This document shows positions 8,613-20,319 of a DNA stretch of 64,000 bases, in pieces. The notes under the pieces were generated by a model, which was not told the DNA's origin, ran no database searches, and saw only the letters and a program-made list of their open reading frames with translations. Source of the DNA: Actinomycetota bacterium (GTDB lineage Bacteria > Actinomycetota > Acidimicrobiia > Acidimicrobiales > MedAcidi-G1); assembly GCA_018673475.1 (NCBI GenBank), contig JABHCN010000013.1, forward strand, positions 1-64,000, written 5' to 3'. The stretch's first letter is position 1; each line of letters begins with the position of its first letter. Position numbers and translations under genes: made by a program.

Positions 8613-9644
8613 CTAGCCGATCAGGTTCAGACCCAGGTTCGGATCGGCACCCGTGTCGAGCGGGCTGGGCCCCTCACGCCTGAACTGCCACCAGCCCGCA
8701 GCAGCAACCATCGCGGCGTTGTCGGTGCACATCGCAGGCGGGGGCAGGAACGCCCGTGCACCTGCACCATTGCAGACCTCGACGAACCGTTCCCGCAGGC
8801 GGGAGTTGGCTGCCACGCCACCACCCAGACAGGCGGCCCTCACACCGGTCTCCTCGATCGCCCACCGGGTCTTGGTCACGAGGGCATCCACCACCGCCTC
8901 CTGGAAGGAGGCAACTACATCGGCTGTCGACGCATCGGGGTCGGACCGGAGGTGGTTGACAACAGCCGTCTTCAGCCCGCTGAACGAGAACGCATAGCGC
9001 CGGTCGTCGGCCAGGGTCGCCGGGTTCTCCTGAACCAGGGCACGCGGGTAGGAGAACGCCGACCGGTCACCATCGACAGCCAGGTGGTCAACGGCCGGTC
9101 CCCCCGGGTAACCGAGACCCAGGTAGCGGGCCACCTTGTCGAAGGCCTCACCGGCGGCATCGTCGAGTGTCGACCCGAGCAGCCTGTACCGACCGTGATC
9201 CTCCATGACGACGAGCATGGTGTGTCCACCTGAGACCAACAGGACGACCATGGGCATCTCGAGGTCGGGCTCCTCGAGGAGGGCCGCGTAGAGGTGGGCC
9301 TCGAGGTGGTTGACCGCAACGAAGGGAACATTCCACGAGAGCGACAGTGCCTTGGCGGCGCTCACCCCCACCAGCAGCGAGCCGACCAGGCCCGGGCCGG
9401 TGGTTGCCGCAACGGCCGCAAGGTCACGGCCCTCGACCCCGGCTGCGACCATCGCCTCGGCCACGACCGGAACCAGCAACTCGACGTGAGCACGGCTGGC
9501 GAGTTCGGGAACCACCCCGCCGTACCTGGCGTGCTGGTCAACCTGACTGCTGACGACCGATGAGCGCACCACCCGCGCAGCCTCGACCACCGAGGCGGCG
9601 GTCTCGTCACACGAGGTCTCTATTGCCAGAACCAGGTCAGACAT
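8613..9644 (-). CDS. tsaD: tRNA N6-adenosine threonylcarbamoyltransferase TsaD
   Basis: Transfers the threonylcarbamoyl group to A37 of ANN-decoding tRNAs, with TsaB and TsaE. The 343-residue ASKHA-fold protein starts at MSDLVLAIETSCDETAA; the open frame upstream is not conserved and lies inside rimI. Metal ligands are in HLEAH, and the SGGHT nucleotide motif and the late CTDNAAM motif are present. The start codon overlaps the end of rimI by 8 bases, so translation is probably coupled. It is the last gene of the tsaE-tsaB-rimI-tsaD string, as in Mycobacterium. Confidence 0.96.
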   Translation of the reverse strand: MSDLVLAIETSCDETAASVVEAARVVRSSVVSSQVDQHARYGGVVPELASRAHVELLVPVVAEAMVAAGVEGRDLAAVAATTGPGLVGSLLVGVSAAKALSLSWNVPFVAVNHLEAHLYAALLEEPDLEMPMVVLLVSGGHTMLVVMEDHGRYRLLGSTLDDAAGEAFDKVARYLGLGYPGGPAVDHLAVDGDRSAFSYPRALVQENPATLADDRRYAFSFSGLKTAVVNHLRSDPDASTADVVASFQEAVVDALVTKTRWAIEETGVRAACLGGGVAANSRLRERFVEVCNGAGARAFLPPPAMCTDNAAMVAAAGWWQFRREGPSPLDTGADPNLGLNLIG

Positions 9645-10182
9645 GGTCACCACCGCCACATGTCGCCCGGGTGGTGGCGCAGGCCGCCTCGACACGCTCA
9701 ATGAAGGACGGGTCGGCAACGTCGTGTACCCACATGACCAGGGCATCCTCGCCGTTGTCGGAGTAGTAGCCGGGCCGAACCCCCGAGGGGGCGAACCCGA
9801 ACCTGGCGTAGAGGCCTCTTGCCGGCATGTTCGAGGCCCTCACCTCGAGCGTCATCGCCACAAGGTCGAGCGACACCGACCGGCGGCAGAGTTCGGCCAG
9901 CAGGAGGCAACCGATGCCGGCCCCCTGAGCCGTCGGACTGACAGCCACCGTCGTGACGTGACCCTCGTCGGCCACCACAGCGAGACCCGCATGGCCGACA
10001 ACCTCTCCACCGGCCTCGGCAACGACATGGAACCTGGTGTCGACTCCAAGGATCTGGTCGCGGAGAAAGCCGGTGGACCACGGTCTCACGAAGACCATCT
10101 CGTCGATAGCCGTCACAGCATGGATGTCAGCCTCGCCCATCCTTCGCAGGACCACCGGGTCACCAGCCGTAACGACGCTCAC
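9637..10182 (-). CDS. rimI: Ribosomal-protein-alanine N-acetyltransferase RimI-like
   Basis: A 181-residue GNAT-fold acetyltransferase. The acetyl-CoA loop is in VSPTAQGAGIGCLLL and the C-terminal motif NMPARGLYARFGFAPSGVRPGYY is typical of RimI, which acetylates the N terminus of ribosomal protein S18 in E. coli. Its place between tsaB and tsaD is the conserved actinobacterial order. It overlaps both neighbours (4 bases with tsaB, 8 with tsaD). Substrate specificity in actinobacteria may be broader than S18. Confidence 0.9.
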   Translation of the reverse strand: MSVVTAGDPVVLRRMGEADIHAVTAIDEMVFVRPWSTGFLRDQILGVDTRFHVVAEAGGEVVGHAGLAVVADEGHVTTVAVSPTAQGAGIGCLLLAELCRRSVSLDLVAMTLEVRASNMPARGLYARFGFAPSGVRPGYYSDNGEDALVMWVHDVADPSFIERVEAACATTRATCGGGDHV

Positions 10183-10880
10183 GCCCCGCCCTCCCTCGTC
10201 GTCCAGTTGATCTCGGCATCGGGCCTGCGAAGGTAGACCGGCTCAAGCTCCCAGGGCCTCACGAACTCCTCACGCATGGCCCTCGCATGTGCAAGCTGAA
10301 CGAGTGCCCTGGCACTGGGGTTGGCCAGGCCCTGCTCGGCCAACTCCACCCCCCTGATCCCACCGAACACCTCCTGGTACCGGAGGGCCCCGTCGCCGAC
10401 GAGCAGGCTCCTCTCCTCGGTGACCTCCAGTTCAGAGGCGAGGTCAGCCGGGCTGCACACGCGTGGATCCACCACCCGTTGAATCCCACCGGGAACCTTT
10501 CGGAACATGGCCACGAACAACTCGCCCCTCCGTGCATCGAGGGCAGACACGATCAGGCGACTGGTCCAACGGGCCGGAAACGCCAACAGGTCGAGGCTTG
10601 AAACTCCGATCACCGGGATACCCAGCGCGTATGCCATCGAAATGCCCGCGACGATGCCGACCCGGAGGCCCGTGTACAGGCCCGGGCCCACATCGACAGC
10701 CACGGCACCCAGTTCGGTGAGTTCGATACCGGCCTGGCGCCGCACAAAGTCGATCTGGGGGCCAAGCGCCTCGGCGTGGCGACGGCCCTGACCGGAGTGG
10801 GCCGAGGCCAGCACCCCCTCGTGGCCTCCGACCGCGCATCCCACCTGACCGCTGGCACTCTCGATGGCGAGGATCAGCAC
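10179..10880 (-). CDS. tsaB: tRNA threonylcarbamoyladenosine synthesis protein TsaB
   Basis: A catalytically inactive ASKHA paralogue of TsaD that forms the core heterodimer for t6A synthesis. The 233-residue protein starts at GTG 10880 with MLILAIESASGQVGCAV, and has the DVGPGLYTGLRVGI signature of the family. It overlaps tsaE by 7 bases and rimI by 4, so the four genes are likely translated as a coupled unit. Confidence 0.94.
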   Translation of the reverse strand: MLILAIESASGQVGCAVGGHEGVLASAHSGQGRRHAEALGPQIDFVRRQAGIELTELGAVAVDVGPGLYTGLRVGIVAGISMAYALGIPVIGVSSLDLLAFPARWTSRLIVSALDARRGELFVAMFRKVPGGIQRVVDPRVCSPADLASELEVTEERSLLVGDGALRYQEVFGGIRGVELAEQGLANPSARALVQLAHARAMREEFVRPWELEPVYLRRPDAEINWTTREGGA

Positions 10881-11377
10881 GGCTCACCGCCGCCCGGCGT
10901 CGAAACGTCCATGGCTGCAACTGTGGCCTCACGGTCGGCCCAACCGTCGCCGACCGTACGGAACTCCAGGAATCGGTCGTCGGGGCCGTCGCCAAGGACC
11001 ATCCGGATCTCGAGGTAGCCACCGGGCAGCGCACCTGCGATGGCATCGCCCCACTCGATGACCGTCACGGACCTGTCGTCGAGCAGTTCATGAAGTCCCA
11101 GGTCGCGCACCTCATCGATGTGGACGAGTCGGTAGACGTCGATGTGGTTCACAACGAGGTCGCCCTCGTAACGGTTGGCGAGGGTGAACGTGGGCGACGT
11201 GATCGGCGTGGTCACCCCGAGGGCCCGTCCGAGTCCCTGGGTGAACGCTGTCTTGCCGGCACCGAGATCGCCGCACAACACGATCAGGTCACCGGCCCTG
11301 ACCGACCCGGCCAGAGAACGCGCAACGGCCATGGTCTGGCCAGCGGAGTGGGTTGCTATGACCGTCAGTGCGCCCAT
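10874..11377 (-). CDS. tsaE: tRNA threonylcarbamoyladenosine synthesis ATPase TsaE
   Basis: The P-loop ATPase of the t6A system, 167 residues. The Walker A motif is in CGDLGAGKTAFTQGLGRALG, followed by the switch-like region ITSPTFTLANRYEG and VNHIDVYRL, then the Walker B-like VTVIEWGDAI. It binds the TsaB-TsaD dimer and drives cycles of catalysis. It overlaps the uracil-DNA glycosylase gene by 13 bases and tsaB by 7. Confidence 0.95.
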   Translation of the reverse strand: MGALTVIATHSAGQTMAVARSLAGSVRAGDLIVLCGDLGAGKTAFTQGLGRALGVTTPITSPTFTLANRYEGDLVVNHIDVYRLVHIDEVRDLGLHELLDDRSVTVIEWGDAIAGALPGGYLEIRMVLGDGPDDRFLEFRTVGDGWADREATVAAMDVSTPGGGEPC

Positions 11378-11981: not shown

Positions 11982-12869
11982 TCAGCAGGCGTTCCCTATC
12001 GCCCTCTCCACGACCGCCACGGTCAATACCCGCAGGATGTCGAGTTCGGCGCCCCCAATGGAAACCCCACCGGTCGCTGCTGCCACCACGGCATCGCCGT
12101 CGGACCGCGTGTGAGGGGGAAAGATCGCCCGAGCCAGGCCGTCATGGGCCGACTGCGCCAACAGCAGGCATCCGGCCTTGTCGACAGCTCCGTTTGTGAC
12201 CACCACACCGATGGTCGTGTTGTCCCTGCCCCCATCTGCGAGCGAACCGGCGCCGGTCCTCTCAGGCCACGAATCGAACACGCCATCGGCGATCGACTGC
12301 GAAACCAGACCGTCATCGACATCGCCGGCTGCGTTGACCGCCATGGCAGCTGCCACAACCAGATCACCACGCCGGGCCGAGGCGAATCCGAATCCACCTG
12401 GAGCCGATCGGTCCCGTCCCCGCCACGTTCCTACCGTGGCGCCTGCACCGGCTCCGACCCGACCAACCTCCACGGTGTCTGACGCTGCCGCATTGGCCGC
12501 CAGGCGCCCCTCGGCGGCGCCGGGCCTCACCGAACCGTCTCCCACCATGAGGTCAAAGAGGGACATCCCGACCACGATCGGCACCGGGCCCGCCGGCGTG
12601 GGAAAGCCGACACCCTGCTCCTCAAGATGGGCCACGACGCCATCTGAGGCGGCAAGGCCGAAGACCGACCCACCCGAGATGACCACGGCATCCAGACGGC
12701 TGACGCTCCGCTCAGGAGCCAGCAGGTCAAACTCGCGGGTTGCCGGTGCGCCTCCACGGACCTCACCGGAGGCCACCGTGCCCTCTGGGAACAGGAGCAC
12801 CGTGCAACCGGTGGCTGCAGCCTCGTCGGTCCAGTGGCCCACCCTGACACCATCGATCGGGAACTTCAC
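11982..12869 (-). CDS. P1/S58 (DmpA-like) self-processing peptidase family protein
   Basis: A 295-residue protein if translated from GTG 12869, 10 bases after the upstream gene stops; longer frames run into that gene. The N-terminal VRVGHWTDEAAATGCTV and VISGGSVFGLAASDGV segments and the later DNTTIGVVVTNG are hallmarks of the DmpA/L-aminopeptidase (MEROPS S58) family. Members cleave themselves before the Thr/Ser of the last motif to create an N-terminal nucleophile. Known members release N-terminal residues from peptides, esters or beta-peptides; the substrate here is unknown. No signal peptide is seen. Confidence 0.88.
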   Translation of the reverse strand: MKFPIDGVRVGHWTDEAAATGCTVLLFPEGTVASGEVRGGAPATREFDLLAPERSVSRLDAVVISGGSVFGLAASDGVVAHLEEQGVGFPTPAGPVPIVVGMSLFDLMVGDGSVRPGAAEGRLAANAAASDTVEVGRVGAGAGATVGTWRGRDRSAPGGFGFASARRGDLVVAAAMAVNAAGDVDDGLVSQSIADGVFDSWPERTGAGSLADGGRDNTTIGVVVTNGAVDKAGCLLLAQSAHDGLARAIFPPHTRSDGDAVVAAATGGVSIGGAELDILRVLTVAVVERAIGNAC

Positions 12870-12879
12870 GCCGCCGACG

Positions 12880-13992
12880 CTAGTTGCACGCCCCTGCGAC
12901 CAGCACATCAATGCGGTCGTCGTAGTCCTCGACCACCCGTCGCCAGTCGAACCGGCGCATCATCACGTCCAGCCCCGCCACCCGATCACGCCACCCGGGA
13001 AGGTCACCGAGAACATCCCTGAGCCGGCTGGTGAGCCCTTCGTCGGGGTACAGGGCTGCCCCGTGCCATCTGTCCGGCACCAGCTCGGGATAGCTCTGTC
13101 TGGTCGGCAGAACCGGCACCGCACCCGCAGCCATTGCCTCAACCACCGCGATCCCGAAGAACTCGTGGGTGGCCGCGCTCACCACCACGTCGCTGGCGCC
13201 CAGCAGATCTACGTACTCCGACCTCGGGAGGTACCCGAACTGGACCACCCGGTCGCCCAACTGCCCCCTTGCCTCGGTCATCTCCCTCGGGTCGACACGC
13301 GTGTTCTCGCCAGCCACGGCAACCCGGAATGCAAGGCCCTCACCGGCCAGCTTCAGGAGGGCGGCCATTACCGCTCCGGGATTCTTGTCGTGGTCCCAGC
13401 GCTGGTTCCAGAGAACCGTCGGCACCTCCGGGCAGGTGGCGGCGTCACGGACCGGTACATCCGAGAGATCGACTCCCACGGGGACGACACGACATGCAGA
13501 GGCGACCGCTTCCAGCCACGGGGCATGGGCCTCGTCGGGAGCACGTTCGAGGAGGGCCGGCAGGGCCTCGAGGAGTCCGTCGCGCTGGAACGCCGAGTTG
13601 AACCAGACCTCGTCGGCCGCGGCCATCCCCAACCAGTTGATCAACGGCAGCGAATCGTCGACACGCTGACCGGGGGCCAGGGGATACATGAGCTGGTTCT
13701 CGTGCAGGTACAGGACCACCGGCGGATTGCCCAGGAACCGGCGGCTGAAACCCAGCCACGCCGCCAGGTCGATCATGCCGCTGACGATCACAAGGTCAGG
13801 AGGTCCCGTCCGCTCCACGGCAGCCCTCGCCTCTGCTGCCAGCGTCAGCGACGAGCCCCGCATCCGCCACCTCCAGAACGCACCCGGGTGGCTTACGGTC
13901 ACGACCTCGTGACGGCTGTGGGTGGCGAGACCGTCAGCCCACGCCGCATGGGAGCCACCGTGGTACGGCTCGACAAGAAGAACGCGGCTCAC
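12880..13992 (-). CDS. DUF3524-type glycosyltransferase, tRNA-queuosine alpha-mannosyltransferase-like
   Basis: A 370-residue GT-B-fold protein. The N terminus MSRVLLVEPYHGGSHAAWAD, then HPGAFWRWRMRG and YLHENQLMYP, are the signature of DUF3524, the domain of GTDC1/QTMAN, which mannosylates queuosine in tRNA-Asp in animals. The C-terminal half has the sugar-nucleotide region ATHEFFGIAVVEAMAAGAVPV typical of GT4 enzymes. Its own acceptor is unknown: the family name gives the best guess, and cell-surface glycosylation is an alternative because alr, nnr and glmS lie nearby. It sits 20 bases after alr. No Q-synthesis gene is in the window. Confidence 0.82.
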   Translation of the reverse strand: MSRVLLVEPYHGGSHAAWADGLATHSRHEVVTVSHPGAFWRWRMRGSSLTLAAEARAAVERTGPPDLVIVSGMIDLAAWLGFSRRFLGNPPVVLYLHENQLMYPLAPGQRVDDSLPLINWLGMAAADEVWFNSAFQRDGLLEALPALLERAPDEAHAPWLEAVASACRVVPVGVDLSDVPVRDAATCPEVPTVLWNQRWDHDKNPGAVMAALLKLAGEGLAFRVAVAGENTRVDPREMTEARGQLGDRVVQFGYLPRSEYVDLLGASDVVVSAATHEFFGIAVVEAMAAGAVPVLPTRQSYPELVPDRWHGAALYPDEGLTSRLRDVLGDLPGWRDRVAGLDVMMRRFDWRRVVEDYDDRIDVLVAGACN

Positions 13993-14012: not shown

Positions 14013-15110
14013 TCAGTACCTGCGCGGCACCCGGTGCCCGATGGTGGCAAGCACCTCGTACCCGATGGTGCCGGTCGCATCTGCCATCTCCCCGACGGTA
14101 AGGAAGTCATCTCCCTGGCCACCGAGGATCACGGCCTCGTCACCCACGGCCACCCCGTCATCCACCTCAACGACCGTCTGGTCCATCGTGATAACGCCCC
14201 GTATCGGCCGACGCCGCCCTCCGATGAGCACCGCTCCGTGTTCCCACCATGCCCTTGTGAGGCCGTCTGCGTAGCCGATCGGCAGGGTGGCCAGCCTCGT
14301 TCGACGATCGGCCATCCACCTGCGGCCGTACGACACGCCCTCTCCGGTCTCCACACCGTGGAGGTGAACGACCTCGCTACGGAGGCGGAGTGCCTGTCGG
14401 AGCCCCAGCTCGCAGCAACGGTCGCGCAGGGCTGTCGAGGGTTCCACTCCGTAGAGGCCGATTCCGACCCTGACCATCGACCTGTGGCTGTCAGGTCGGG
14501 TCAGGGTTGCCCCGGTGTTGGCCATGTGGACAACCGGCGGGTCAAGACCGGCAGCGGAGAGGTCCGCCAGGGCTTCGTCAAGCGCTGCCATCTGGTCGCC
14601 GGTGAACTCATCGCCTGGCTGGTCGGCCGAGGCGAAGTGGGTGAAGATCCCCTCCAGGGTGAGGCCCGCTCCCCCGATCCGCTTCGCCAGTCGGACCGCA
14701 TCAGAAGGATCTGCACCCACCCGGTTCATCCCCGTGTCGAGCTTGAGGTGAACCGGTGAGCCAGCTGGTGCGACAGTGGCGAAGGCGTCTATTCCTGCCT
14801 CTGAGTAGACGGTGGGCCTGACTCCGGCCAGTTCAGCCAGACCGGCCATCTCGGATGGCCGCGGCTCGGATAGGACCAGAACCGGTATGGCAATGCCCGC
14901 AGACCGGAGTTCGGCAGCCTCGTCGACCAGTGCCACCCCCAGCCATTTCGCGCCAGCCTCGACAGCGACCCTGCCCACCGCGACAGCCCCATGGCCGTAG
15001 GCGCCGGCCTTGACGACGGCACACAGGTCGCTCTCGCCGACGATTCCCTGAAACACACCGACGTTGTGGGCAATGGCCGTAAGGTCGATCTCGGCCCATG
15101 TGGGTCTCAT
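14013..15110 (-). CDS. alr: Alanine racemase
   Basis: PLP enzyme making D-alanine for peptidoglycan. The 365-residue protein has the cofactor lysine in VVKAGAYGHGAVAVG, the barrel motifs KLDTGMNRVG and GVSYGRRW, and the C-terminal beta domain ending GHRVPRRY. Its ATG overlaps the stop of nnr by one base (TGATG), implying translational coupling. The position next to nnr and upstream of the tsa genes is the mycobacterial order. Confidence 0.96.
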   Translation of the reverse strand: MRPTWAEIDLTAIAHNVGVFQGIVGESDLCAVVKAGAYGHGAVAVGRVAVEAGAKWLGVALVDEAAELRSAGIAIPVLVLSEPRPSEMAGLAELAGVRPTVYSEAGIDAFATVAPAGSPVHLKLDTGMNRVGADPSDAVRLAKRIGGAGLTLEGIFTHFASADQPGDEFTGDQMAALDEALADLSAAGLDPPVVHMANTGATLTRPDSHRSMVRVGIGLYGVEPSTALRDRCCELGLRQALRLRSEVVHLHGVETGEGVSYGRRWMADRRTRLATLPIGYADGLTRAWWEHGAVLIGGRRRPIRGVITMDQTVVEVDDGVAVGDEAVILGGQGDDFLTVGEMADATGTIGYEVLATIGHRVPRRY

Positions 15111-16887: not shown

Positions 16888-19800
16888 TCAGGACGAACCC
16901 TCCCCACGAAGGCGACCGGCTATGCCTCCGACAGGGTCAACAAGGAGGTCCTCGACGGGCAGGTCGGCCAACCGGTCATCGCGCAACTGGGTCTCTGTCT
17001 CACAGACGGCGTCGCGGATCTCGTCGTAACGGTTGCGGTAGCCGTGGAGCACGCCACGCAGGTCATCGGGCGGCAGGTGGTCGTGGAGCACCACATGCAG
17101 CAGGGTCAGACCAGTCGCCTGACCGTCCTTCACCTCGGGGACCAGCACGATCGTTCGGCCGTCCCTGGCTCCCCGGGTGACGAGAACCTCACGAGCCACG
17201 ACCACGCTGTGCTTGGTGCCGCGAAGCGCAGGATCACGATCGGAACGAGACTCGATGCCGGTGGAGATCCCACCCCTGTCGACGATCGCCACCGTTGGCG
17301 TGCTCCCCTCGAGCCCGTCGACCCGGTAACGGGTGAACCCGACAACATCGGCCACCGCAGCATCCAGGTCGGCCAGCAGCCGCAGGGTCCTGTAACTGAG
17401 CGAATCACGCGGTGCGCCGGCATCGAGAACCTCGCGGACCAGGCCAGCGGTCAGGAGCATCTCGTCGGTTCTGGAGATCCCCACCGTCACCGTCTTGGCC
17501 TGGTGCTTGATGGCATCAATCGGTCGGGTCAGTTCCTCGATGGCCTGCGTCAGTGCCCCGGCCAGGTCATCGAGCACCAGCGCCGGTGTGCCGACCGGAC
17601 CAAACTCGAGCTGATAGGACTCCAGTGGCAGGTCACCCGTGGCATAGCGGAACTGCGCCGCCAGGCGGACCGCTGTGGAAGCCTCGAGGTGGCCGTTGAG
17701 GCGTCCCGACCTGAGCTCGTCAAAGAACCGGGATGCCAGCGGCCTCAACTGCAACCTGAGGTCCTCGACCGGGCCGGCGGAGGCACCCGCTGTCAGACCG
17801 GCCGCCGCCAGGCGTTCGATGGCGGCATGCGCCTCTCGCAGCGGGGCGGCCTGGGCGTCGATGGAGCGCGCCGCCTCGTAGCCGAAAAGGTGCCCGACCA
17901 TTGTCGAGAGCACGAACGCCAGACGCGGGTGCACCCGTGGGACGGTCACGACGTCGAGGGCGTCAGGGAACCTGCCCAGGCCTGGATCTGCGTCTGTGAC
18001 AACTATCGGCGCGGCCTTATGGGCCCGGTAGATGGCCACCTCCTTGGCCACGTCATCAGCCGTGGAGCCCACCATGCCGGTTGCACAGACCAGCACCATC
18101 GGCTCGGCCGACAGGTCGATGTGCTTCTTGTCCTCGGTGGCGTCGGCGGCAATGGACTTGTAGCAGAGCTCGGACAGCTTGATCCTGATCTCGCGAGCGG
18201 CGATCAGGTTCGCACCAGTGCCCACGACGGCCCAGTGGCGACGCCCTGGCCCGTATCTGTCTGCGACGTTCCCGATGTGTTCCTGCAGGGCCAACACCTC
18301 GACCATGGCCTCAGGAAGGTCACGCAACCCGTCGAGCAGGTCCGCCCGGTCATCGGCACCGGGAAGACCGGCGGCGTCGGCGAGTGCCGCTGCCAACAGG
18401 ATGCCTGCCACCACCTGGGCGTAGAAGGCCTTTGTCGATGCGACGCTCATCTCAACATCGCGGCCATCGGATGTGTAGAACACGCCGTCGGCCCGGTCTG
18501 TCAGATCGCTGTTCCTGCGGTTCACTATCGCAAGCACCCTGGCGCCGCGTGCCCTCACCAGGTCGACGGTGCGGTTGGTGTCGGTGGTCGTACCGGACTG
18601 GCTGATTGCGACGATCAGGGTGTCGGACATGTCGCGGCGCAGACCGGAGCCCGACAACTCGGTTGCGGCCCTCGCCTCGGTGATCATGTCGGACCCCGTG
18701 AACTCTGCCGCAACCGACAGTGCAACCGCCTCGCCCGCTACCGCTGCGGTTCCCTGCCCGATGATGGTCACCCGGCGGATCCGGCCAGCAGCCAGATCGG
18801 CACGCAGATCAGCTCCGAGGGCACGCTCTCCGAGCCTGACCGTGGACGTGCCGTCGACATCTACGAGCCTGCCCCGCAGGGTGGAGCGGACCGACGCCGG
18901 AGCCTCGCCGATTTCCTTGATCAGGTAGTGCGGGCTGTCGCCACGGTCAATGTCGCGTGTGGTGATCCCGGCCTTCACGAACTCGTGCTCTGCGACCGGG
19001 AGCAGCCGGCCGTCGTAGGACCGCCGGTCGATACCGGCCGGGTCACCGGCCAGCGAACCATCCAACCCGACGATCTGGCCATTACCGGCAACCGGTCCGG
19101 CGCCATCAGACACGGCACCTCCCTCCATTCGAAGGTAGGTGTCTGTCAGCTCCACCACGCCGTAGGGCTCACTCGCAACAATGAAGGCATCTTCGGCAAC
19201 GCCTATGTAGAGGGCCTGGCCACTTCCCCGCAGCGCCAGCCAGAGGCGGTTCGGGGAACCACCCATCGACGCAGCCACGGCGACCGACCCCTCAAAGGCG
19301 GCGACGGTACGTCGGAACGCCTCGTCCTCGGACTCGTCTGCCGCAAGGTGACTGGCACAAAGTGCCGGTACGACCCTCGTGTCGGTCGTGATCTCGGATG
19401 CGACCGAGAGGTCCTCGGATGCGACCAGGTCCGCATGGTTGTCGACATCACCGTTCTGGACGGCCAGCACCAGCGGTGAATGCAGTCCGTCGGCGCGGGT
19501 GGAGTCCAGCGGATGTGCGTTCGCCTCGGAGATGAGGCCGACGCTGGCCCAACGGGTGTGACCCAGCACGGCGCCGCTGACCGACGGGCTGACAAGCAGT
19601 CCGGTCAGCACCGCGTCGGTGGCAAGTGCCGTTCGCATTGCAGCGGTGTTGTCGCCCAGCTCTCCGATCTCCGCTGCAGCCTTCACCACGAACGAGAAGC
19701 CTCCACCGGGGAGGCGTCTGACGGCTCCGCTGCGGAGGAGGGAGTCCTCGTCACGGCCCATCAGGTCGACATCATCGAAGCCGTGGTCCCAGACGGTTAC

Positions 19801-20319
19801 GACGAGGCCCGCCGAATCCCGGCCACGGACCTCCAGCCTGTCAATCGCGGTGAGGGCCTGGTGGACCGAGAGCAGCACTGCACGGCCGGCCTCGCTGGGT
19901 GGCTGGCGCTCCGAGGCCAACGAAGCCACACCGGCATGAGCACCCAGCCGGTCACGGCGCAGCGACCATGCAGCGTCCCTCGCCCTCACCAGGGCGACGT
20001 TCGCCAGTTCCAGGTCGGCCCGCGCACCTTCAAGGACCTTCTCCATCCGAATGAGATGCTCAGAGACCTGTTCCAGAAGTGGATCCAGAAGCCCGATCAG
20101 AGAACCTCCGGCCTCCATCGCCGCCAGCCCGGAAACGCCGCCCAACAACTGATTGGCCATCTCGAGCTGGTCGGCCACCTCCGCCAGGCCAACTTCGTCG
20201 GGGGCGACCACCAACCCCCTGAGAAGGTCCAGAGCCCGACCAACGGGTCCGGTGACATCGGTGACCGTCGGTACCGGCCGAACTGACGGCCGCCTGAGGA
20301 CCGCGATAATGCCGCACAT
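16888..20319 (-). CDS. glmS: Enlarged glutamine-fructose-6-phosphate aminotransferase (GlmS-like, 1143 residues)
   Basis: GlmS makes glucosamine-6-phosphate from fructose-6-phosphate and glutamine; usual length is about 610-625. This protein starts MCGII with Cys2 as nucleophile, then has about 135 mostly helical residues (10-145) not found in canonical enzymes before RLEVRGRDSAG (161-171). HTRWASVG, NGDVDNH and TDTRV complete the glutaminase site. Two SIS domains follow: ISQSGTTTDTN with DVEMSVASTKAF, then LSELCYKSIAADA and EDKKHIDLSAEP, which keep the equivalents of E. coli Glu488 and His504. About 100 extra residues precede KHQAKTVTVG, matching the usual C-terminal AKSVTVE (Lys942 for Lys603). 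A further 197 residues (947-1143) with no recognised domain follow. Catalysis is probably intact. Confidence 0.88.
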   Translation of the reverse strand: MCGIIAVLRRPSVRPVPTVTDVTGPVGRALDLLRGLVVAPDEVGLAEVADQLEMANQLLGGVSGLAAMEAGGSLIGLLDPLLEQVSEHLIRMEKVLEGARADLELANVALVRARDAAWSLRRDRLGAHAGVASLASERQPPSEAGRAVLLSVHQALTAIDRLEVRGRDSAGLVVTVWDHGFDDVDLMGRDEDSLLRSGAVRRLPGGGFSFVVKAAAEIGELGDNTAAMRTALATDAVLTGLLVSPSVSGAVLGHTRWASVGLISEANAHPLDSTRADGLHSPLVLAVQNGDVDNHADLVASEDLSVASEITTDTRVVPALCASHLAADESEDEAFRRTVAAFEGSVAVAASMGGSPNRLWLALRGSGQALYIGVAEDAFIVASEPYGVVELTDTYLRMEGGAVSDGAGPVAGNGQIVGLDGSLAGDPAGIDRRSYDGRLLPVAEHEFVKAGITTRDIDRGDSPHYLIKEIGEAPASVRSTLRGRLVDVDGTSTVRLGERALGADLRADLAAGRIRRVTIIGQGTAAVAGEAVALSVAAEFTGSDMITEARAATELSGSGLRRDMSDTLIVAISQSGTTTDTNRTVDLVRARGARVLAIVNRRNSDLTDRADGVFYTSDGRDVEMSVASTKAFYAQVVAGILLAAALADAAGLPGADDRADLLDGLRDLPEAMVEVLALQEHIGNVADRYGPGRRHWAVVGTGANLIAAREIRIKLSELCYKSIAADATEDKKHIDLSAEPMVLVCATGMVGSTADDVAKEVAIYRAHKAAPIVVTDADPGLGRFPDALDVVTVPRVHPRLAFVLSTMVGHLFGYEAARSIDAQAAPLREAHAAIERLAAAGLTAGASAGPVEDLRLQLRPLASRFFDELRSGRLNGHLEASTAVRLAAQFRYATGDLPLESYQLEFGPVGTPALVLDDLAGALTQAIEELTRPIDAIKHQAKTVTVGISRTDEMLLTAGLVREVLDAGAPRDSLSYRTLRLLADLDAAVADVVGFTRYRVDGLEGSTPTVAIVDRGGISTGIESRSDRDPALRGTKHSVVVAREVLVTRGARDGRTIVLVPEVKDGQATGLTLLHVVLHDHLPPDDLRGVLHGYRNRYDEIRDAVCETETQLRDDRLADLPVEDLLVDPVGGIAGRLRGEGSS

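Follow-up and report, generated by a model that had tools for sequence, protein, structure and literature searches.

The window, by which is meant the whole stretch of 64,000 nucleotides analysed, carries on its minus strand an open reading frame for a two-domain glycosyltransferase, lying between genes for an alanine racemase and an S58-family peptidase (Table 1). The N-terminal half of the encoded protein was matched by Pfam PF12038 (QTMAN_N, the N-terminal domain of tRNA-queuosine alpha-mannosyltransferase, formerly DUF3524) over the whole profile (positions 1-168 of 168; 163.5 bits, cut-off 25; E-value 5e-48), and the C-terminal domain was matched by Glycos_transf_1 with 47.5 bits. None of the NCBIfam models reached its cut-off for this protein, the best scoring 40.1 bits against a required 400, which leaves no ordinary named GT4 family there with a better fit. 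The preliminary description of this DNA had linked a DUF3524 signature to GTDC1/QTMAN while allowing that ordinary GT4 enzymes might match better; that better match was not found among the NCBIfam models and the family call stands. The reading frame encodes a genuine QTMAN-family protein, from a family that is already known and whose Pfam model already recognises bacterial proteins. A profile search detected a single QTMAN_N gene in the source genome (assembly of 2.04 Mb, 94.6% complete) and no match in E. coli, one of the control genomes and, in strain K-12, a Q maker. The closest relatives of the protein come from Acidimicrobiales and from MAGs of the Microthrix type (L036 is 84% identical), which makes an acidimicrobial actinobacterium the most likely source of the window. 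The QTMAN rows aligned with the protein are about 33-85% identical to it. The donor-site core is intact. E285 is kept in 120 of 121 rows, and E277 is invariant in a 16-row alignment and lies below the 93% list of the 121-row alignment.

Table 1. Features at and around the QTMAN-family gene in the window (residues are those of the encoded protein)
Feature	Position	Strand	Basis
QTMAN-family glycosyltransferase	12880..13992	-	370 aa, GTG start; Pfam PF12038 and Glycos_transf_1, AlphaFold model
QTMAN_N domain, residues 3-174, proposed acceptor domain	13471..13986	-	Pfam match
WRWR stretch, residues 40-43	13864..13875	-	W40, W42 and R43 kept in 116-119 of 121 rows
HENQ motif, residues 97-100	13693..13704	-	kept in 113-120 of 121 rows
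GT4 C-terminal (nucleotide-sugar) domain, residues 192-325	13018..13419	-	Pfam match; GT4 folds
RWDHDK, residues 198-203, GT4 donor-site stretch	13384..13401	-	R198, D202 and K203 in 121 of 121 rows
EFFGIAVVE, residues 277-285, GT4 E-x7-E stretch	13138..13164	-	both E align with those of PimA
alr, alanine racemase, upstream neighbour	14013..15110	-	TIGR00492, 319.6 bits, cut-off 168
S58-family peptidase, downstream neighbour	11982..12911	-	PF03576, 108.9 bits
tsaE, tsaB, rimI, tsaD (t6A genes)	8613..11377	-	TIGR00150, TIGR03725, TIGR01575, TIGR03723, all above cut-off

An AlphaFold2 model built from 59 aligned sequences (mean pLDDT 96.2, pTM 0.93) predicts a two-domain GT4-like enzyme, whose best Z against solved GT4 structures is 33.1, over 343 residues. 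The GDP-mannose enzymes PimA and PimB' gave Z values of 26.0 and 27.5, respectively, and UDP-sugar enzymes scored as well or higher, so the sugar is not named by the fold. In sequence searches against solved structures, PimA ranked first both for the protein alone (E 9e-8, residues 156-355) and for the 16-row profile, and it came within the top four with the 59-row profile. In the alignment of the protein alone with PimA, R198 coincides with its PimA counterpart, as do the two glutamates, and K203 lies one residue off PimA's lysine. Residues 1-75 are left uncovered by sequence in every best solved-structure stretch among the matches listed, and no solved QTMAN structure is named among the best 50 matches of each fold comparison.

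The gene order reported earlier, with the gene placed between alr and an S58 peptidase and t6A genes nearby, was confirmed by family models (Pfam in the case of the peptidase); the starts of tsaE and tsaD lie 1.5 kb and 3.1 kb, respectively, past the QTMAN gene. By eye, the peptidase more probably begins at a GTG one base after the stop codon of QTMAN than at the listed TTG. Elsewhere in the window (16888-20319, minus strand), a GlmS-like reading frame encodes 1143 aa against a glmS model of 607 positions and reaches 216 of 418 bits, below the cut-off; its counterparts in four relatives measure 1134-1171 aa. The arrangement alr-QTMAN-S58-udg-tsaE-tsaB-rimI-tsaD is that of the window's relatives, with tsaD present in 12 loci. 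Among 96 gene-order rows (97 loci, of which L048 had no reading frame in the QTMAN cluster), alr lies directly upstream in nine, all from close kin of the window, and the other loci have mostly housekeeping neighbours, including dnaX/recR, gyrA, mutY and NADH dehydrogenase genes (named by eye). The neighbourhood offered as a functional hint in the preliminary description is thus lineage-specific and says little, and a function drawn from alr or the t6A genes was rejected because the surroundings differ elsewhere. Physical linkage to the queuosine (Q) genes was rejected too: no tgt or queA was found near QTMAN among the reading frames of the 97 loci (up to 10 kb per side, often less). As a control, the same queries recovered tgt from all 63 tgt loci and queA from four of the 63. 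A second GT4-like reading frame within 5 kb was detected in only two of the 96 loci, with a profile derived from QTMANs, which distant GT4s may escape; this indicates that the QTMAN gene rarely sits in a glycan cluster. Gene position therefore does not connect QTMAN directly with Q, and it argues against membership of surface-glycan clusters.

According to the preliminary description, absence of tgt would argue against a Q acceptor; the gene is present on contig 40 of the source genome (TIGR00430, 394.9 bits, cut-off 306.75), directly adjoined by queA within the gene order ruvA-ruvB-queA-tgt-secD-secF-relA, as named by eye. The genome also carries queG (TIGR00276, 248.4 bits, cut-off 200), and no QueH match was found in it. 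With tgt, queA and queG all present, the source cell should place Q in tRNA, as read from the genes alone. The pocket of its TGT is GGLSVGE, of the preQ1 type. This TGT (L001 1492-2601, G000 contig 40; also L215 6329-7438) is without the CxCxxC zinc cysteines, reading PGFPASPAAAW instead, and passes the TIGR00430 cut-off despite their absence; the cysteines are also missing in the TGT of L139 (G684) and are retained in the other 61 rows of the alignment.

In a sample of 396 Actinomycetota genomes, 17 gave a QTMAN_N match and 267 a queA match. The 17 QTMAN genomes span 12 family codes and all carry tgt; all 17 also carry queA, compared with 250 of the 379 others (one-sided Fisher test, 0.001, kinship ignored). 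A wider scan with one genome per species returned at least 563 confirmed QTMAN stretches, 80 of which were kept; these come from Actinomycetota, Chloroflexota, Bacteroidota/Rhodothermota, Acidobacteriota, KSB1, Spirochaetota, Myxococcota/Deltaproteobacteria and Omnitrophota, with some unassigned. Viral copies were sought in viral_contigs with six short peptide patterns, none of which found a match. Fifty genomes were picked for spread among the 80, and queA was found in 46 of them. Named strains with both QTMAN and queA include Longimonas halophila KCTC 42399 (L099) and Flavilitoribacter nigricans DSM 23189 (L108). Two of the remaining four (G403 and G415) have tgt, and the other two, G397 (L037) and G437 (L102), each of 1.7 Mb, have a QTMAN gene with neither a tgt nor a queA match; these are possible counter-examples, and may be incomplete genomes or real exceptions. 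That genomes with QTMAN genes nearly always carry the tRNA-queuosine machinery suggests that Q may be glycosylated in some bacteria as well.

A different picture emerged from Chloroflexota. QTMAN_N exceeded the cut-off in 27 of the 251 genomes sampled, and 26 were retained after L214 (G652) had been dropped from this set, the conservation counts and the tree, since it scored 43 bits, above the Pfam cut-off, without the family motifs (its inclusion gives 27 QTMAN genomes, with queA in 9/27 and tgt in 27/27). The partial gene of L213 leaves one gap in several conservation counts. Whereas queA was found in 163 of the 251 genomes, it is present in only 8 of the 26 with QTMAN, compared with 155 of the 225 others (two-sided Fisher test, 3e-4, kinship ignored), and 18 QTMAN genomes are without it. 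Dependence on queA, that is, on Q synthesis, was consequently rejected as a general rule, as the association runs the opposite way here. This anti-association would speak against a Q acceptor if Q needed home synthesis, but tgt is present in all 26 QTMAN genomes, including the 18 without queA; of 17 sampled Chloroflexota lacking both queA and QTMAN, only 7 have tgt (one-sided Fisher test against 18/18, 1.1e-4, kinship ignored). The Q link proposed at the outset is in this phylum borne out for tgt and not for queA. The QTMAN gene thus accompanies TGT both where Q is synthesised and where it is apparently salvaged, and this TGT-linked, queA-independent spread goes beyond the preliminary description. 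The residues W40, W42 and R43, the HENQ motif and R198/D202/K203 are equally kept in QTMANs of queA-bearing and queA-less genomes, as expected if both share finished Q as acceptor. On the bacterial QTMAN tree, the proteins from queA-less genomes correspond to two changes, that of G573 lying well away from the others. Two further Chloroflexota (G447 and G460) show a strong queA match and no tgt match, and are either incomplete genomes or cases of odd queA use.

The pocket of the TGT itself differs between the two groups. It reads GGSLG in 18 of 18 queA-less QTMAN Chloroflexota and GGL[SA]VGE in 8 of 8 queA-bearing ones. According to the available part of one report, GG[LS][AS]G is the motif typical of queuine-salvaging TGTs (PMC11570991), and the accessible text of another describes how the change of Val233 to glycine in the Zymomonas enzyme enlarged the pocket for queuine while the mutants still did not insert it (PMC3660597). 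GGSLG has likewise lost the valine and falls one residue short of the published motif, with L in place of A/S, so that it represents a likeness and no match. It occurs in 20 of 63 TGT rows, namely those of the 18 sample genomes, of G457, a control genome without QTMAN, and of G415 (the genome of L065). A branch with SH-aLRT 94 separates these 20 enzymes from the other TGTs, and they keep the catalytic stretches and the zinc cysteines. An exact fit to the published motif, GGLAG, was found in four of the seven tgt-bearing controls without QTMAN (G476, G494, G503 and G512), which indicates that a salvage TGT and QTMAN need not pair. A second TGT paralogue with the pocket GGWPLD is present in 12 Chloroflexota (L162-L172, L178), of which nine have QTMAN but no queA and the other three have queA.

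The Q_salvage family (Qng1/DUF2419, PF10343) was rejected as a general QTMAN partner; it is found in 64 of the 251 Chloroflexota but in only 2 of the 26 QTMAN genomes (G533 and G573). In G573, however, its gene directly precedes the GGSLG TGT gene, 57 bases apart and in the same direction (contig 19:39491-41529), which provides an independent pointer to queuine use. The two genes are also neighbours, in divergent orientation, in G481, a queA-less member of the Chloroflexota (contig 276:855-3466). In both genomes they look like a bacterial queuine-salvage pair.

The reading that we consider probable is that the window encodes a bacterial QTMAN that glycosylates Q34 of tRNA, most likely with alpha-mannose from GDP-mannose, yielding manQ, presumably on tRNA-Asp; acceptor, sugar, hydroxyl and tRNA are all deduced. 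The full-length QTMAN_N match, the tgt, queA and queG genes of the source genome, the association with TGT in two phyla, also in lineages where queA is missing, the altered pocket in every queA-less QTMAN genome of the Chloroflexota sample, the motifs kept with or without queA and the near absence of other GT4-like genes nearby all argue for Q34, and PimA, a GDP-mannose enzyme, as best solved sequence match argues for mannose. In the source genome, preQ1 would be inserted by TGT and Q finished on the tRNA by QueA and QueG; in some Chloroflexota, Q would apparently be put at position 34 by a queuine-accepting TGT. The Q34 anticodon loop would then be held by the QTMAN_N domain, and the GT4 domain would transfer the sugar, with retention, to one of the cyclopentene hydroxyls of Q. 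The broader proposal that glycosylated Q is a bacterial tRNA modification across several phyla, and that some Chloroflexota have the animal arrangement (no QueA, a remodelled TGT that takes queuine, and a QTMAN capping the salvaged base), is in our judgement evenly balanced.

The assignment of mannose is weakened by the fold comparisons, which leave GDP-mannose and UDP-sugar enzymes unseparated. Transfer of another sugar (glucose, galactose or GlcNAc) to Q34, or glycosylation of a tRNA other than tRNA-Asp, so that the product would be a novel Q derivative in place of manQ, is unlikely, though several points favour it: many UDP-sugar enzymes are found among the GT4 fold and the best structural matches, the spread of identity among QTMAN rows leaves room for a change of sugar, and the occurrence of manQ on tRNA-Tyr in a mosquito, as given in the available portion of PMC11705514, indicates that the choice of tRNA can drift. 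The family name and the best solved sequence matches point to mannose instead.

The Q34 assignment itself is weakened by the deviation of GGSLG from the published motif and by the GGLAG controls without QTMAN, as well as by three observations that also favour a GT4 enzyme for some other acceptor (a lipid, a glycan or a small molecule), namely the queA anti-association in Chloroflexota, the two genomes without tgt or queA (G397 and G437), and a QTMAN gene that is never near tgt or queA. On that explanation the TGT link would reflect shared ancestry and genome content, and we regard it as improbable given the full QTMAN_N domain, tgt in 26/26 QTMAN Chloroflexota (18/18 of the queA-less ones against 7/17 controls) and GT4-like neighbours in so few loci. 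An enzyme that modifies a precursor, either preQ1- or epoxyqueuosine-tRNA or else free queuine, in advance of Q-tRNA or in its place would suit a gene that accompanies TGT and is at times found without queA. This is very improbable, since preQ1 carries no cyclopentene hydroxyls and the altered TGT pocket of queA-less genomes indicates that the inserted base is queuine itself.

If Q34 glycosylation by the bacterial enzyme is true, a modification so far described, in the sources available, as an animal one of unclear purpose would gain a simple host in which to learn the role of the sugar, and the question of the origin of the animal enzyme would be raised. Bacteria that make Q and bacteria that apparently salvage queuine with the same glycosyltransferase would offer a direct contrast for tRNA mass spectrometry. 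In the portions available of the open-licence literature, outside which most subscription papers lie, no bacterial mannosyl-Q and no tested bacterial QTMAN was found, and the open-licence papers naming QTMAN or QTGAL report, as far as their accessible text goes, no bacterial enzyme.

Several known systems provide a frame for these findings. PimA and PimB' share the GT4 fold with the window protein, PimA aligning over its C-terminal part, and differ from it in having no sequence match of QTMAN_N length and in using a lipid, phosphatidylinositol, as acceptor. The queuine-salvaging TGT of the Chlamydia trachomatis type resembles the 18 GGSLG enzymes in the loss of the pocket valine, unlike the TGT of the window's own genome, which retains it. 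Further modification of Q34 of tRNA-Asp in bacteria has a precedent in GluQ-RS, as described in the available part of PMC3542578; it is likened to the proposed bacterial QTMAN in this respect, although GluQ-RS is a relative of glutamyl-tRNA synthetase and adds glutamate. In animals, according to the accessible text of PMC12518689, the mannose of manQ is placed on the allylic 3-hydroxyl, for which QTMAN is selective. Judged by domain profile, the animal enzyme (GTDC1) and the window protein appear to share the order of a QTMAN_N domain followed by a GT4 domain, in hosts with Q-tRNA machinery, with the difference that animals take up queuine whereas the bacterial host has its own queA and queG.
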